From Chlorobiota bacterium (GTDB lineage: Bacteria > Bacteroidota > Ignavibacteria > OLB7): a stretch of DNA of 64,000 nt. The first letter of the stretch is position 1. Every line of letters begins with the position of its first letter. Shown here one piece after another: positions 38,655 through 51,557 of the stretch. Position numbers and translations under genes: made by a program. The stretch lies in assembly GCA_016788565.1 (NCBI GenBank), contig JAEUSP010000115.1, positions 1 through 64,000 on the forward strand, written 5' to 3'. Below the pieces are notes generated by a model that saw only the letters and a program-made list of their open reading frames with translations, made no database searches and had not been told where the DNA came from.

Positions 38655-40979
38655 CTATTTCACCACTACCAACCTCCCAACACTCTGAGTGTTATCACTG
38701 CTGACGACGACCTCGTACACCCCCGCAGCAACATCCGCTACGTTCAACTCCAGTGTTTGATATTCTCCTGACCATCCCACATTCTCAATCGGGATTGTTT
38801 GTATCATTCGGCCAAGAATATCACGAAGAATAATGCTTCGAATAACAGTGCTTCCCGGCACTTCCACCCGTCGCCGATCGTTTGTGGAAATGGTTGGCAC
38901 TACTCGCACATCCGCATTATTCCCCCCATTGTGTTCACCTTCGTTTGGAACTGACGTTACTGGCGTAGCGAACTCGCCACGAACCAGTACACCATGTCCA
39001 TACACTATCATTGTTCGAGCACTTGGCGTTAATACTCCACCCCGAAACACCACACTGCTATCGCTTGCTTGTGGTGGCCATACATATTCTCGTTCCCATG
39101 TCTTTCCAGCGTTTGTCGTCTTCATCAACAACGCATTGCTCCCGAAAATGTAGCCTACCGAATCACTGAAGAATTGAATCCTGGTAACTGCCCCATCCAC
39201 ATTTATGGAATCCCAATGATCTCCACCATCTAAAGTAGAATAAACTCTTCCCATCTTTGGAGCATACCCGCTTCCATCTCCTAAACCATAGCTTATCCAA
39301 CATTTATTTTCATTTTGACAGGCAATACTTGTGAGCCAAAATGAAAAATTTTTATTAAATACCTCCTTTTTCATTTGCCATGATCGACCGCCATCTATTG
39401 TTCGATATAATCGTGAAGCAAATACAGTGTCAACATCATGTATTTCTCTATGTAAGGATAAAAGTCCTATCCAACCTTGCATATCATCTAAAAAATGAAA
39501 ACTAGTAATCAGAGTTTGCTCCGCTGGAGACTGGATACTATTTACCCAACTTCTACCTCCATCAGTCGTTGTGAAAATAATACTATCAGTAGCTAAAAAA
39601 CCTCTCTGTGAATTTAAAAATTGCATCCCTGAAGCATAACTGTACTGTAACCCATTAAATGAAGTTTCAACTAAGCTCCACTTACTCCCTTGATCTTCAC
39701 CACGAAGTAGGAAACCGCTATTATAAATTCCATTCCATGGTAATGCAAGAATAGTACCTATTTTATCCTCTACATATAGCTGCTTTAATCTCCGAGGAAC
39801 ATCAATTGATGACCATGATAGGCCACCATCTGTTGTCCGTAAAACAGATCCAGAACCACTGCCTCCAATAACTACTCCTGTTTTATCATTAAAAAAATAT
39901 CCATCGGTGTATTGAAGATTATCATCAGGAGGGATATCTAATTGCCATAATTTCAGATACAATAATTCGCGCCATGTCTTTCCATTATCTTTGCTTATTA
40001 CTATGCAACTATTTTGGCCAACTCCTAACAAATCATTATTCGAATTTTTAGCTATATCGCTAAACCCGTATACGTCTGTTCGTATGCCTGATTTAATCCC
40101 TTTCCATGTTTTACCGCCATCCACTGTTAATACTGCAAGCACGCCAAGTGTGTCTGTAAATCGTGGCAATTGCCCCATGGCTATAATCCGTTGTGAATCT
40201 ATTACTGCTACAGTGTTAGGATAATGATTTAATCCGGCGGTATCGGCTAATCGCCAACTTGCAAACTTATCATTACTAATAAGGACAACTCCTGCGCGCG
40301 ATGGGCCAACCTGATACCCAACAACAGCACAGGTAGCCCCATTGCAACTCACACCTGTATAGCGGGGCAAAGAATCAACTCCTAATCGCTTCCATGTTTC
40401 ACCACCATCTGTTGTCCGCAATACATATCCATAATTTTGCTTGCCGCCAACGATAATCCCATGCAGGCTGTCTGAAAATGCAATATCAGCTAATGGTTGC
40501 GAAGACTCTTGATAAATCTGTACCACACTCCAAGTATTTCCCCCATCGTTAGTACGAAGTGCGCGCCCGCTATCGGCAAGGATAAATCCTCGCTGAGAAG
40601 TTGCAAAGGCAATTCTAGTAAGGATATTCTGTTTTGGTGAGTTTTGTGGTTGCCATCTCTCTCCACCATCTGTCGTTTGCAAAATTGTTCCAGAAATAGA
40701 TGAGGCAAAACCATGCAACGAGTCAATGAAATACAGTCCAAGCAAGTGATCCGTAGTCCCGCTTTCCATATACCTCCATGTTTCCCCAGCATCAGTAGAT
40801 TTCATAATCACCCCATGCCATCCTACTGAAATCACTGTAGAGTTCGATAACCATTTTACAGACCTTTGGTGTGTACCAATACGCTGCCAGTGGGACTGTG
40901 CTAAAGTTGTTGTCGTTTTAATGATTAGGAATAACAACAGCCAGAAAAATGACGATAGATGCTGAGATTGTGGTTTCAT
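38655..40979 (-). CDS. Secreted Ycf48/BNR-repeat protein with T9SS sorting domain
   Basis: The product is 774 aa from the ATG at 40979. A signal peptide ends TTTLAQ. Multiple Ycf48/BNR-type blades follow, with Asp-box motifs such as STDAGETWRYM, TTDGGERWQP, TNDGGNTWSVV and TTDGGETWKRL. The C-terminal ~80 residues (IIRDILGRMIQTIPIENVG ... GVYEVVV) are a T9SS sorting domain. It is likely a surface or secreted beta-propeller. The gene body looks visibly more AT-rich (about 39.2-41.0 kb) than the housekeeping genes. It is the third gene of module A (sigma factor, Cys-rich protein, Ycf48-like protein). Confidence 0.88.
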   Translation of the reverse strand: MKPQSQHLSSFFWLLLFLIIKTTTTLAQSHWQRIGTHQRSVKWLSNSTVISVGWHGVIMKSTDAGETWRYMESGTTDHLLGLYFIDSLHGFASSISGTILQTTDGGERWQPQNSPKQNILTRIAFATSQRGFILADSGRALRTNDGGNTWSVVQIYQESSQPLADIAFSDSLHGIIVGGKQNYGYVLRTTDGGETWKRLGVDSLPRYTGVSCNGATCAVVGYQVGPSRAGVVLISNDKFASWRLADTAGLNHYPNTVAVIDSQRIIAMGQLPRFTDTLGVLAVLTVDGGKTWKGIKSGIRTDVYGFSDIAKNSNNDLLGVGQNSCIVISKDNGKTWRELLYLKLWQLDIPPDDNLQYTDGYFFNDKTGVVIGGSGSGSVLRTTDGGLSWSSIDVPRRLKQLYVEDKIGTILALPWNGIYNSGFLLRGEDQGSKWSLVETSFNGLQYSYASGMQFLNSQRGFLATDSIIFTTTDGGRSWVNSIQSPAEQTLITSFHFLDDMQGWIGLLSLHREIHDVDTVFASRLYRTIDGGRSWQMKKEVFNKNFSFWLTSIACQNENKCWISYGLGDGSGYAPKMGRVYSTLDGGDHWDSINVDGAVTRIQFFSDSVGYIFGSNALLMKTTNAGKTWEREYVWPPQASDSSVVFRGGVLTPSARTMIVYGHGVLVRGEFATPVTSVPNEGEHNGGNNADVRVVPTISTNDRRRVEVPGSTVIRSIILRDILGRMIQTIPIENVGWSGEYQTLELNVADVAAGVYEVVVSSDNTQSVGRLVVVK

Positions 40980-41063
40980 GATATGTTGAGGGAGCAATGA
41001 TTGATTTGTTGCTGGTTTTAATCTATCTAAATTATCCAGCCTATATTATTTCCACTAACGACA

Positions 41064-41099
41064 CCTCTACCTACTACTTTTTATTGTAATAGGTAGAGG
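41064..41099. promoter_or_regulatory. Intergenic hairpin between the Cys-rich and Ycf48-like genes
   Basis: CCTCTACCTACTA pairs with TAATAGGTAGAGG (one mismatch) around a short A/T loop. It lacks a T-run in either direction, so it may be an attenuator, an RNA-processing site or a repeat rather than a simple terminator. Confidence 0.5.
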
Positions 41100-41125
41100 G
41101 GATGCCATTATCCTTCTATGAAGAT

Positions 41126-41749
41126 TTAGGGACATACAACAGGTTCAGGAGGTTGTACCCCAGGGCACATTGTTGTACAGCCAGTTTGATACTCACATTG
41201 ATCTGAGGTTGCTGTCCCTTGATAAAACGGAGTAAGAGTGCCGTCGCACCGGCAGCAAATTTGAAAAAGGTCTGCACATCCTTGGCTAGCACCCGCAGGA
41301 CAAGGATCCCACTGACCATTTATTTCTGTCCAACATGTTCCCCAACTTACCTGAAACGAAGTAATAATTTCAGGGCAATTTTTGCAGGTTAATCCAATTG
41401 GATTTTGGGTAATTAATATTTTCGCGATTTCTCTCATCTTTTGTCCAGTTAAGACACATCCTGAACCTGTCGGTATTGTCACCTGTAAAATATGGTATTG
41501 ATTTGATGGAAATACAGTAGGCCCAGGGATACAATACTTAACCTGAATTGCAACCCCAGGACAACTGGGTACGGTCATCGTAGTCGTAAAAGGTCCCAAA
41601 AATCCTGTCGGACACTGCGCCTGCAATAAGCCTGCCGATAGAAGCATCATTGCCATGATGCCTATACCAACTATGCACAACTTGCATAGCGTCTTACTAC
41701 ACTCCCTGCGCCACATTCCCACTATTGCTACCGTTCTATCTTGTTTCAT
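41126..41749 (-). CDS. Secreted cysteine-rich protein of a novel family, member A
   Basis: The product is 207 aa from the ATG at 41749, which has an excellent AAAGGAG site 7 bases upstream. A signal peptide ends at LLQAQ, then the mature part is Cys-rich. The cysteine pattern is C-x2-C-x13-C-x10-C-x7-C-x6-CC-x-C near the end, then a final C-x3-C (GCTTMC). The protein at 46352 has the same framework (C-x3-C-x12-C-x14-C-x5-C-x6-CC and final C-x3-C). Both also lie between a regulator and a Ycf48-like T9SS gene. I recognise no known domain. It is presumably disulphide-stabilised and exported. Confidence 0.7.
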   Translation of the reverse strand: MKQDRTVAIVGMWRRECSKTLCKLCIVGIGIMAMMLLSAGLLQAQCPTGFLGPFTTTMTVPSCPGVAIQVKYCIPGPTVFPSNQYHILQVTIPTGSGCVLTGQKMREIAKILITQNPIGLTCKNCPEIITSFQVSWGTCWTEINGQWDPCPAGASQGCADLFQICCRCDGTLTPFYQGTATSDQCEYQTGCTTMCPGVQPPEPVVCP

Positions 41750-42014
41750 GATCTTCTCCTTTAAGAGTATGATTTGTTTGTCTTCTATCTCAGCCATACC
41801 CACTCATTTCCTACAGTCTATGTGGCCACCTTCTAATGCAGTAGAAATGCACTAACCGATTTTCCACACCGACATAATGAATGCGCAGTTACTGACACCG
41901 TGGGTTGCACCACCTCCCAGCACAGGAGAGGTGAAACTGGCGAATATGGTGAGGGTTGTTATACCGTTTGTTGAACAACACACGGCGACTCACCGGCAGA
42001 GTTAGTGTACAGTA

Positions 42015-42533
42015 TCAATACGAACCGCAGAGTTCCGGGAAACTGCTCCGTAGCTTCTCTTTTGTTCGGCTCCCTTTTTGTCGTATTGTCCCCACCTTCT
42101 TTCCCAATATTTCGGCTATCTCTGCATAGCTATACCCTTCTCCATAATGGAGCCATACTATCGTCTGCTCCTCGCCTGTTAGAACCGGTTTGATGTTCTC
42201 CCAGTCCATCTTCGCCTCAATGACCGCTCCCGCTCCCGAGTGTAGCTCCTCATCAAACGCCTCTGTTAGTTGCCCAATTCTCCCCTTGCGTCTTTCACGC
42301 CGATGGTATGCCAACCATTCATTCTTCAGAATCCCCATTATCCACGATTTGAAGCTACGCTCCCCATCCCACATCCCAAATTGTGTCCATGCCTTTACTA
42401 ACGTCTCTTCAAGAATATCCTTCCGGGCAGATGCATCTTTGCAGCGCCACCATAGCCATCGTTCCAGCCTTGGCAAGATCACTTTATAACGGTGCAGAAA
42501 CTCTTCTGTTTGCTGGTGAGACAACGAAGCCAT
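42015..42533 (-). CDS. ECF-type RNA polymerase sigma factor
   Basis: The 172-aa product has sigma-70 region 2 (ILEETLVKAWTQFGMWDGERSFKSWIMGILKNEWLAYHRRERR) and region 4 with an HTH (GYSYAEIAEILGKKVGTIRQKGSRTKEKL). It would direct RNA polymerase to dedicated promoters. The Cys-rich secreted gene starts 265 bases downstream in the same direction, then comes the Ycf48-like T9SS gene. No anti-sigma factor is visible. It forms the regulator of module A, and its composition is AT-richer than the speA/gatB region. Confidence 0.9.
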   Translation of the reverse strand: MASLSHQQTEEFLHRYKVILPRLERWLWWRCKDASARKDILEETLVKAWTQFGMWDGERSFKSWIMGILKNEWLAYHRRERRKGRIGQLTEAFDEELHSGAGAVIEAKMDWENIKPVLTGEEQTIVWLHYGEGYSYAEIAEILGKKVGTIRQKGSRTKEKLRSSFPELCGSY

Positions 42534-45811: not shown

Positions 45812-46324
45812 TCAGCGAGCCACCACAATTCTTCCCACCCCGGCCAACACCCCACCACAATTCAAGCTGAACGAATAGACCCCGTTTGGCAAAGCAGCCG
45901 TGGCATACTGCACCGATTGCTGCGAGGGATGAACCTCCATCTGTTGGATGTCGGCTTGCGTGCCACGGTTATCGTACAGCCGCAGTTCCGCTTGGCCGAA
46001 CAGTGAGGTTTTCAATGGGATCGCCACCACTCCGGTTGCGGGGTCGGGGCTGGATGCTGTCAGTGCAAAAGGAGCTGCACCCTGGATCGCGTTCCGCAGC
46101 GACTCTATCGCTTGTTGGCGGGCATCTTCCCCTTCGTTTCCGCGCACCCACCGCCATGTTTTTCCGCCATCGTTCGTAACTAATGCCGAGCGTCCTTCTG
46201 CGGAGACGACGGTGATATTATCGTCGGCAGATTCCGAGTTGCCATTGTTTTGTGCCATCAGGTTTGGGGCGCAAAACAGCACCGAAGCTGCGGTGGCAAG
46301 CAGATATATCAGGTAGCGTTTCAT
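45812..46324 (-). CDS. Short Ycf48-like protein with T9SS sorting domain
   Basis: The 170-aa product has a signal peptide ending APNLMAQ. One Asp-box (TNDGGKTWRWV) follows, as in Ycf48/BNR proteins, and then a T9SS-like C-terminal domain (ELRLYDNRGTQADIQQMEVH ... GVYSFSL). It looks like a much-shortened relative of the 774-aa protein at 38655: signal, one blade, sorting domain. It starts 27 bases after the Cys-rich gene's stop and forms module B with it and the LuxR fusion. Confidence 0.75.
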   Translation of the reverse strand: MKRYLIYLLATAASVLFCAPNLMAQNNGNSESADDNITVVSAEGRSALVTNDGGKTWRWVRGNEGEDARQQAIESLRNAIQGAAPFALTASSPDPATGVVAIPLKTSLFGQAELRLYDNRGTQADIQQMEVHPSQQSVQYATAALPNGVYSFSLNCGGVLAGVGRIVVAR

Positions 46325-46351: not shown

Positions 46352-46984
46352 TTACTGGCATGTTGTTTCGCATGGCAGGCCGTTGGGCCCGATGCCGCAG
46401 CTACCGGTTGGAGTCACCCCAATCAGCGTGATTGAAGGACCGCTTGCGCCCGGCGGGCAGCAGACGGCGTACTCTTTTTCGCACGAAGCAGTGATGTCGC
46501 AGCTTTGGAAGTGAGTTCCATTACCGCTTCCGGTACGGGAAACACACAGCGACTGATAGACTTTCGTGACAGTGGGAGTTGAGCAACTTGGCCCACAAGC
46601 GGTATATCCGTTGGTAATCCCCTGAGCCACGGCAAGCTGGGAAAGCATTCCGAAAAGCTGCCCGGTTGGAATTGCATCAATCACCCCAGCACAATCGCCC
46701 GTGCAACGGATGGAACTGGTGTTCAAGACATAGTCTATCCGGTTGGTGGAGGTGCGGTAAACGACGATCTCCATTCCTATGCTGCACTCTTTTTTTTCTT
46801 TTTCATCAGCCAGTAGCTGGCCTCCTTGACCACCAACCTGTAAATTGACCCAGAATGTTGCTATAACCGTAGCATTCGGATCGGATGGATGCGGAGGGTA
46901 TGGCTGGGCAGATGCCTCGGTTGAATGCCATAATAGCATTGCTATTATGGCAACTATGCTTCTTGTGAATAGCGTACTGTTCAT
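46352..46984 (-). CDS. Secreted cysteine-rich protein of a novel family, member B
   Basis: The 210-aa product has a signal peptide ending TEASAQ. The mature part is Cys-rich with C-x3-C-x12-C-x14-C-x5-C-x6-CC, followed later by a final C-x3-C (CETTC). The spacing closely follows the protein at 41126, and the gene holds the same position between a regulator and a Ycf48-like T9SS gene. Overall sequence identity beyond cysteines is low. It has no recognised domain and may be exported to the surface with its T9SS neighbour. It is part of an operon with the 45812 gene. Confidence 0.7.
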   Translation of the reverse strand: MNSTLFTRSIVAIIAMLLWHSTEASAQPYPPHPSDPNATVIATFWVNLQVGGQGGQLLADEKEKKECSIGMEIVVYRTSTNRIDYVLNTSSIRCTGDCAGVIDAIPTGQLFGMLSQLAVAQGITNGYTACGPSCSTPTVTKVYQSLCVSRTGSGNGTHFQSCDITASCEKEYAVCCPPGASGPSITLIGVTPTGSCGIGPNGLPCETTCQ

Positions 46985-47135
46985 TGCTTTGGGGGCTTAT
47001 CGAAACGTCTTTCCGTGCTGTTTACAACTACTCGGCAGATGCACGAGTAAGGCTCATTCAGCCGATTGCAATATCGCTGATGATCACGCCAGATTCCTAT
47101 ACCACTATCGTGTATTTTTTTCTTGCCGCACTGAG

Positions 47136-48353
47136 TTAGAAGCCTAATCGCGAAGTAAAGTACTTTGCAAACAATTCTTGCGCGCTACCAGTATTGGTCT
47201 TGTGGTAGATATTAGAAGCATGCTTGCGCACGGTTTCAATGGAGATAAGTAGCCGATCTGCCATTTGTTGGTAAGAATGCCCAAGTAACTGTAGAATCAC
47301 CACTTTCTGTTCTTGCTCTGTAAGCTCGGCATCCCGGTTCAACGCAGCCATCGCATCATTCAGAACATATCCTTGGGGTTTGGCCAGCTGATAACGTGCA
47401 ACAAGGTCGGAAAAAAGAAACTCTATGAACTTCTCTTGCAAATGAAGGAACTCAATTGTGTGTCGCGAGATAGGCGCTTTTGTTTTCTCCCGCCATAGCA
47501 CGATAACACCGATGTATTCGCGCTGTTGGTAATAATACTCGAAACAAGAAGGTGGATGATAGATTCTTTCTGTAAACCCCTTGCTTGCCAGACTACTCAC
47601 AATCCGTTGTGAAGGAGCGTGCTCGGCATCACGCGAAGTAACAGCAAGAGAACTCGGCTTTTGATCACCTGCCTGAACGAATTGTGTGACCGATTGCTGC
47701 TTATCCAGCTTGCCTGGATTCAACAGATCACACGCAACATCAATCACCACTGTTATTCTATCTACGTCAAATAGCAACGTTTGAAGCCCATCCCGAAATG
47801 CAGTTATCCACTGAACAACATCTGGTGTGGTTGGCAGGGTGTTCAAGAACCCCAAAAAACTTGCAGAAACAAGCGAGTTGTAGGGATTCGCTCCTGCAAC
47901 TGCTATAGGCTTAGAGCCATCCACTGTTTGCCAATCTTTCCGTATTCCCAGAGTTGTTCGCAGTAAACGGGAGACTCCCTCAAGGCTATATTCTACGTTA
48001 TGTTGCTCTTGTATCCATCGCCGCACCGACTCTAAGGTTCGCAGATTCCCGGCCTCAAACTCTTTTTTTAGAGACTCAACTCCATGGTGATCAAGGCGCT
48101 GTGGTCTGCCACGCTTTCCATTTCCAGCAATAAATTCCTCAAATCCTTGATTCACGTAGGTTTTCCACCAACGTCGCACAGTACGCTCGGAACACCCTGC
48201 CTGTTCAGCAATTGCTTCTAATGGTAGCTCTGGCTGTTGTTTTATCAAACGGAGAATCCGAATTTTTTGTACATCTGGCTCGCTCATGCGGCGTTCCTGC
48301 CACAGGAGCATATCAAGACTTTCCGTTACAGTTCGGGAGCGAGATTTTGCCAT
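47136..48353 (-). CDS. Fusion regulator: IS630-transposase-like HTH, GAF-like middle, LuxR HTH
   Basis: The product is 405 aa from the ATG at 48353. Residues ~35-70 are an HTH (LEAIAEQAGCSERTVRRWWKTY). With ~71-136 (GFEEFIAGNGKRGRPQR to YSLEGVSRLLRTTLGI) they match the N-terminal DNA-binding half of IS630-family transposases. No DDE catalytic domain follows. Residues ~165-335 resemble a GAF-like domain (YIGVIVLWREKTKAPIS). Residues ~344-405 are a LuxR-type HTH (LTEQEQKVVILQLLGHSYQQ ... TVRKHASNIYHKT). It looks like a domesticated transposase DNA-binding part reused in a regulator. It is the first gene of module B, upstream of the Cys-rich gene. The -7-like element at 48388-48395 may be part of its promoter. 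Confidence 0.8.
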   Translation of the reverse strand: MAKSRSRTVTESLDMLLWQERRMSEPDVQKIRILRLIKQQPELPLEAIAEQAGCSERTVRRWWKTYVNQGFEEFIAGNGKRGRPQRLDHHGVESLKKEFEAGNLRTLESVRRWIQEQHNVEYSLEGVSRLLRTTLGIRKDWQTVDGSKPIAVAGANPYNSLVSASFLGFLNTLPTTPDVVQWITAFRDGLQTLLFDVDRITVVIDVACDLLNPGKLDKQQSVTQFVQAGDQKPSSLAVTSRDAEHAPSQRIVSSLASKGFTERIYHPPSCFEYYYQQREYIGVIVLWREKTKAPISRHTIEFLHLQEKFIEFLFSDLVARYQLAKPQGYVLNDAMAALNRDAELTEQEQKVVILQLLGHSYQQMADRLLISIETVRKHASNIYHKTNTGSAQELFAKYFTSRLGF

Positions 48354-48514: not shown

Positions 48515-48796
48515 TTATCGCGCAAGAATCATCCAGCGCGAAGCACGGTACGAACCGGATTCTAAGCTATAACAGTATAAACCGCTCGGTAGCCACTCAC
48601 CATTGAACATCACCCGATAGGCTCCTGCCTCCAGATACGCGGCAACAGGACGCGCCACTTCCTCACCCAACAGATTTGTGATCCGAATGATTACTGGACC
48701 ATCCAGCCCTACCGAAAACGGCAACTCCGTTGTCGGGTTAAAAGGGTTCGGGCGATTCTCCAACAACGCATAGCCCGCATCGCTCGATTCTATCAT
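48515..48796 (-). pseudogene. Orphan T9SS sorting domain fragment
   Basis: The 93-aa frame starts just before RPNPFNPTTELPFSVGLDG and ends SRWMILAR, which is a complete T9SS type A sorting domain with nothing else. There is no signal peptide, and in-frame stops lie close upstream. It is likely the 3' remnant of a lost secreted protein gene. A role as a stand-alone peptide is possible but unsupported. Confidence 0.6.
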
Positions 48797-51200: not shown

Positions 51201-51557
51201 CTATTGATGGCCGACACGCGCCCAGACGTTACGCAGTTCTGTGGTGGCGATTCCATCGGCCTCCATCGCCCCGTACAGATGCTCCATTCCGCCGCCGCGC
51301 CAATCCTGTTTCCATTGCCGGATCACCTCTATTGTTGCCGAAAACAGCACAGATAAGGCGTGCTCAGAAAAACCCTCCGTGCTCATCAGCAGTGTGCGAA
51401 CGCGCCGCTTAATTGGCAGATGCCGAAGCGGCAACACTCTTGCCAGCCACAGCAGTTCTTCCCGCTCGATCTCTGTAAGAATCACAGTGATGGCCACAGC
51501 CGTAGCATTGCTGCCGGCAGTGTTCCCTTCTTGGTTGGTCGTAAGTCTGGTATCCAT
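51201..51557 (-). CDS. Small IS630-like helix-turn-helix protein
   Basis: The 118-aa product has a helical DNA-binding pattern. LTEIEREELLWLARVLPLRH, RVRTLLMSTEGFSEHALSVL and ATIEVIRQWKQDWRGGGMEH resemble the N-terminal HTH half of IS630-type transposases. No catalytic domain follows. It is the last in a run of minus-strand genes that starts at 63088. It may be a transposase remnant or a small regulator. The LuxR fusion at 47136 carries the same kind of domain. I infer DNA binding; no target is known. Confidence 0.5.
   Translation of the reverse strand: MDTRLTTNQEGNTAGSNATAVAITVILTEIEREELLWLARVLPLRHLPIKRRVRTLLMSTEGFSEHALSVLFSATIEVIRQWKQDWRGGGMEHLYGAMEADGIATTELRNVWARVGHQ

Follow-up and report, generated by a model that had tools for sequence, protein, structure and literature searches.

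Introduction

Host capture of transposase DNA-binding domains has been described mainly from eukaryotes. In Caenorhabditis, the helix-turn-helix (HTH) of Tc1/mariner elements was captured by F-box genes, where it reportedly plays no part in transcriptional regulation (PMC12062965). LuxR acts at the lux box, which is centred at -42.5 (PMC7585371), and the sigma-A promoters of Bacteroidota carry a -7 box, TAnnTTTG, at -12 to -5 (PMC9723704). No published fusion of an IS630-type domain with a LuxR regulator was found in the literature searched. Here we describe a gene from a Chlorobiota bacterium, lying in a stretch of 64,000 nucleotides that was analysed as a whole (hereafter the window), in which an original prediction had seen the DNA-binding region of an IS630 transposase joined to a LuxR regulator. 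We consider it probable that this gene encodes a LuxR-type regulator that acquired the DNA-binding first ORF of an IS630-family transposase, and that it is the control gene of a cassette, as a LuxR-like activator of a secreted-protein gene.

Results

Domain order of the regulator

The open reading frame was confirmed, with its ATG at 48353 and its stop at 47136, and is divided as follows.

47136..48353, minus strand: regulator gene, 405 aa, with an IS630-type HTH domain, a GAF-like middle and a LuxR HTH (ORF, profile matches, paralogues, model)
47931..48353, minus strand: N-terminal IS630-type tandem HTH domain, residues 1-141 (Pfam and NCBIfam, alignment, dN/dS)
47379..47864, minus strand: middle domain, residues 164-325, predicted fold like GAF and autoinducer domains (structure model; none among the Pfam matches listed)
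47154..47336, minus strand: LuxR (GerE) HTH, residues 340-400 (Pfam match, recognition-helix comparison)

The LuxR HTH that had been predicted was recovered by Pfam (GerE, PF00196) at residues 343-394 with an E-value of 3.4e-10, and a C-terminal HTH of this type was present in 9/9 members examined. The Pfam matches listed for the regulator of the window and for nine members include no family that covers the middle domain, nor the autoinducer-binding PF03472. The structure model (mean pLDDT 75, pTM 0.44) has two helical units in residues 27-134, compatible with a tandem HTH, followed by an alpha/beta domain at residues 164-325 and the LuxR HTH. In Foldseek, the middle and C-terminal parts fell near the LuxR-type receptors SdiA, QscR, CviR, LasR and RhlR (best E 9e-4), with GAF proteins ranking below them; the TM-scores, at about 0.2, were low, and the LuxR HTH itself accounts for part of the match. 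The middle domain is thus predicted to have a GAF/LuxR-receptor-like fold, and the GAF-like middle of the original prediction agrees with this model, though not with any Pfam match among those listed. The LuxI synthase family (PF00765) had no match in G000, G001, G002 and G004, and control genomes were equally without a match.

Relation of the N-terminal domain to IS630 transposases

The NCBIfam model of IS630 transposases (NF033545) aligned residues 42-139 of the regulator with its positions 12-112 of 299 (E 1.5e-15), scoring 57 bits where the cut-off is 100. Since only this portion of the profile is covered, the DDE domain is absent, as had been foreseen; indeed, the residues that follow are those of the middle domain and the LuxR HTH, with no DDE part. 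The IS630 model matched all 12 family N-termini sampled, the best at E 2.2e-16. The Pfam models HTH_23, HTH_32, HTH_28, HTH_29 and HTH_33 all match residues 29-132, and the models of IS481, ISNCY and IS3 also match the N-terminus, weakly; nevertheless, IS630 was the best curated match by several orders of magnitude.

The domain was also searched for outside the bacterial family, in 294 genomes of the class and 396 of the phylum (about 690). The best matches include IS630 first ORFs (L089, L108, L109, L113 and L115), each of which precedes an ORF with the IS630 DDE signature. The alignment to these first ORFs is co-linear and gap-poor over about 140 residues, starting at the N-terminal helix and stopping close to where the first ORF ends, and the helix bearing arginine and tryptophan aligns with the same helix of the elements. 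The proposed likeness to IS630 HTH regions was thereby borne out, with an extent that had been set too short, at 136 residues, given that the homology reaches about residue 141. Among the best matches in the approximately 690 genomes, no ordinary regulator with the same tandem HTH was recognised, standalone proteins of uncertain status aside. A standalone protein of 141 aa in G258 (L107) figures among the outside matches, and at L107:4833-5285 (minus strand), in another family of the same class, a standalone IS630-type HTH protein with no DDE ORF is encoded upstream of a large secreted-protein gene. Because the HTH and DDE ORFs are separate in these elements, a fusion at their boundary would give just this domain. 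From the sequence comparison, capture from a transposase would be the most economical reading, and its direction is the one we infer.

Between the window regulator and its G001 orthologue, dN/dS was 0.12-0.17 for residues 1-131, similar to the middle domain, and the LuxR HTH was the most conserved part of the regulator. Over residues 25-76 the ratio was about 0.06, which indicates strong conservation of the first HTH and of its helix SERTVRRWWKTY. These ratios point to purifying selection on the N-terminal domain. Its second HTH half has degenerated in the L051/L052 group. Taken together, the profile matches, the co-linear alignment, the repeated domain order and the purifying selection support both a relation to IS630 and a fusion with a LuxR regulator.

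A recent insertion of an IS630 element into a LuxR gene was considered and rejected, since the own genome contains no IS630 transposase over the cut-off, no pair of terminal inverted repeats was found flanking the regulator gene, and the domain order is kept between genera. Two inverted-repeat pairs were found, one with both arms inside the regulator gene and the other with one arm inside. Elsewhere in the window, an ORF of 118 aa (51201-51557, minus strand) gave a weak IS630 N-terminal match (E 0.028).

Distribution of the full-length and short forms

A search for homologues with the same domain order, as had been suggested, found two paralogues in the own genome (34 and 28% identity) and, in three other genomes of its bacterial family (G001, G002, G004), another eight full-length copies. 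About ten more copies in this family are without the N-terminal domain. Of the 60 genomes closest to the own one, only these three have relatives in full-length or short form, and G003 has none; elsewhere the LuxR HTH alone matched. A GTDB scan with a 5-member alignment as query returned the same genomes, as JADZEY01 (Armatimonadetes bacterium SJ842), JAQBOZ01 (Chlorobiota bacterium RYN_334) and JAFDZV01 (Bacteroidetes bacterium SZAS-92), together with two unrelated LuxR HTH matches. Thus, neither the genomes sampled nor the GTDB-wide scan contained a regulator with IS630 HTH and LuxR parts outside this family.

The tree built on the shared part requires three changes between full-length and short forms. 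Since a single clade of full-length forms was not rejected (AU p 0.21), one gain of the N-terminal domain with later losses is possible. An apparently split regulator gene in G001 was set aside, its halves lying at contig ends with an identical overlap, which indicates an assembly gap. At L057:9-1025 (= L082), a short-form regulator carries an extra C-terminal HTH of XRE type (PF01381, E 7e-9), absent from its orthologue L055. In the window, upstream of the regulator, a short ORF (48515-48796, minus strand) ends in a sequence like a type IX sorting tail and is possibly the end of a broken gene.

A cassette with a secreted partner

The Cys-rich gene at 46984, to which the original prediction had pointed, proved the more informative lead, through its pairing with the regulator.

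46352..46984, minus strand: partner gene, encoding a secreted Cys-rich protein of 210 aa of no known family (homology, profile search, Pfam)
45812..46324, minus strand: third gene, encoding a small secreted protein that ends in a sorting tail for type IX secretion (PF18962 profile, cassette comparison)

Immediately downstream of 14 other regulators, and in the same orientation, lie homologues of the partner, at distances of 128-751 bases. A partner profile found 16 copies in four genomes, 15 of them directly downstream of a regulator and one starting at a contig end. Among 391 genomes of the class, all copies belong to this family, save one weak partial match of 46 residues in another family; this match and the copy at the contig end aside, no partner was found outside cassettes. 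All full-length regulators have a partner, as do 4 of the approximately ten short ones, and six short regulators are without partner or operator site. A co-divergence of regulator and partner was discarded, with no correlation once the G001 orthologue was left out.

By inspection, the partner protein has a signal peptide. Most copies hold 10-16 cysteines and four copies 2-3. It had no credible Pfam match, and its predicted fold, despite a mean pLDDT of 83, had no PDB match better than E 0.16. On this comparison of sequences the partner is a previously undescribed family of secreted proteins. The third gene follows in six cassettes; for the PF18962 sorting domain, the L073 and L067 copies score over the cut-off and the window copy falls just below it (25.6 versus 27 bits). 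A cassette of a regulator, a secreted and usually Cys-rich protein and sometimes a type IX protein thus appears to have multiplied in one bacterial family.

At L062:4745-5440 (minus strand), the N-terminal domain occurs by itself (146 aa), and both this copy and a broken piece of a further one adjoin a complete cassette. The same layout with another kind of regulator is present in the window at 38655-42533 (minus strand), with genes, in this order, for an ECF sigma factor, a Cys-rich secreted protein (41126-41803) and a large DGGxTW-repeat protein. Relatives of the Cys-rich protein encoded there occur in G001, G002 and G003, and its only likeness to the cassette partner is a CC..C..C tail.

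A candidate operator and promoter

In most cassettes a candidate operator sits between the regulator and the secreted-protein gene, and in the window the corresponding elements are the following.

47097..47120, minus strand: candidate operator, an imperfect palindrome, AAAAAATACACGATAGTGGTATAG, which is the longest stretch identical to the G001 orthologue (motif search, orthologue comparison)
47068..47075, minus strand: candidate -7 element, GATATTGC, with 3/6 consensus positions and the operator spacing of other cassettes (promoter-pattern comparison)

The motif search in 14 intergenic regions gave a palindrome, CTACACAAAAGTGTAG followed by TTG in its best form, mostly located 113-178 bases ahead of the partner start, with a score of 165 versus 89-95 in mononucleotide shuffles. 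When each orthologue group was represented by a single cassette and dinucleotide shuffles served as control, the score was 96.8 versus 93.8 for the best of 15 shuffles. Given this marginal difference, support for the motif comes mainly from orthologue conservation and promoter spacing. Indeed, the operator is the longest identical stretch in 4/5 orthologue pairs (21-24 bases), and 11 cassettes have a TAnnTTTG-like -7 element 20-21 bases after the motif; these elements match at a mean of 5.1/6 positions versus 2.6 at random positions, with 0/20,000 draws as high. In most cassettes the motif abuts the -33 element of a -33/-7 promoter, and the -7 register of PMC9723704 puts the centre of the palindrome near -44, close to that of the lux box (-42.5). 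The operator of the window is kept in G001, its own site and -7 element being weak (3/6).

The cassettes whose regulators are without the IS630 domain (L053, L054, L055, L057) keep the operator, which makes the LuxR half, and not the IS630 half, its probable reader. L055 and L057 each repeat the motif, together with a separate -7 element, 36 bases beyond the partner gene; in L057 this second copy precedes the type IX gene. The operator site varies with the regulator group: three cassettes (L051 and two in L052), in which the LuxR recognition helices are altered, are without the motif, and in these another candidate element, CATGCGxGTGAxTT-like, was found by eye at a fixed 32 bases from ATxTTTG. 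A wider regulon was not retained, since pattern matches at 3 mismatches were near control level outside cassettes. No RNA element was found in the region.

Discussion

The domain order, the homology, the pairing, the operator and promoter pattern and the purifying selection can all be read from the DNA itself, and they suggest how the regulator might work. The middle domain would sense a signal, and the LuxR HTH, as a dimer, would bind the palindromic operator that adjoins the -33 element and activate the promoter of the secreted-protein gene, as LuxR does at the lux box. The IS630-derived domain may add a second contact, with DNA or protein, sharpening or separating the circuits of the paralogues; its role would be separate from operator reading, because the operator is common to regulators without it. 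From the operator position we infer that the regulator most likely activates, and does not repress, the partner gene. In its boldest form, which we regard as doubtful, a two-handed regulator born of the captured first ORF would read two kinds of site, and the cassettes, as they multiplied, would have diverged to form parallel signalling circuits, insulated from one another within one cell.

Of the two DNA-binding modules originally proposed, one of them from a transposase, the IS630 relation and the LuxR fusion stand; DNA binding by the N-terminal domain does not follow, as the sole common operator also occurs where that domain is missing. It is conceivable, as a tentative alternative, that the IS630-type domain has lost its DNA binding and become a module for protein interaction or dimerisation, with the LuxR HTH alone contacting DNA. 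Such a change would accord with the operators kept beside short regulators, with the degenerated second HTH half of the L051/L052 group and with the nematode F-box case, in which the Tc1/mariner HTH is a possible interaction platform (PMC12062965). However, the strong conservation of the first HTH and its helix, and the alignment of the arginine/tryptophan-bearing helix with that of IS630 first ORFs, argue against it.

The preferred reading of the LuxR half as an activator has to be weighed against repression of the partner, or reading of the palindrome by some other factor, the pairing then reflecting duplication of whole blocks. We consider this unlikely. Position alone is no proof of activation, and six short regulators have neither partner nor site; yet the operator lies upstream of the -33 element, abutting it and not covering the start site, as with LuxR-type activators, and the site varies with the regulator group. 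It is very improbable that the N-terminus is an ordinary tandem HTH with no capture involved, resembling transposases only as HTHs in general do and hence matching generic Pfam and other transposase models, given the lead of IS630 over other curated matches of the N-terminus, its match to 12/12 members, a co-linearity that stops where the first ORF stops, and the want of an ordinary regulator with this tandem arrangement among the best matches of the approximately 690 genomes, uncertain standalone proteins aside.

The locus offers a bacterial case of capture: there are several paralogues, the captured domain is present in some forms and missing from others, and every gene has a candidate target promoter at its side, so that the effect of adding such a domain is directly testable. 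Moreover, it brings to light an unnamed family of secreted proteins with its specific regulator.

To conclude, the regulator resembles LuxR-type quorum-sensing receptors such as SdiA, QscR, CviR, LasR and RhlR in having a ligand-domain-like middle followed by a C-terminal GerE HTH, and in its predicted palindromic site near -44. Unlike them, it has an extra N-terminal IS630-type tandem HTH, shows no PF03472 among the matches listed and adjoins a secreted-protein gene. With the first ORF of the IS630 family (IS630-Tc1-mariner) it shares a co-linear tandem HTH over about 140 residues, whereas it has no DDE domain, second ORF or terminal inverted repeats, and its HTH is fused to a LuxR regulator and conserved as a host gene. 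As in the F-box genes of Caenorhabditis (PMC12062965), an HTH of the same transposase superfamily was apparently captured by a multicopy host gene family; in contrast to that eukaryotic case, in which the HTH is reported to act outside transcriptional regulation, it is here joined to a bacterial transcription regulator.
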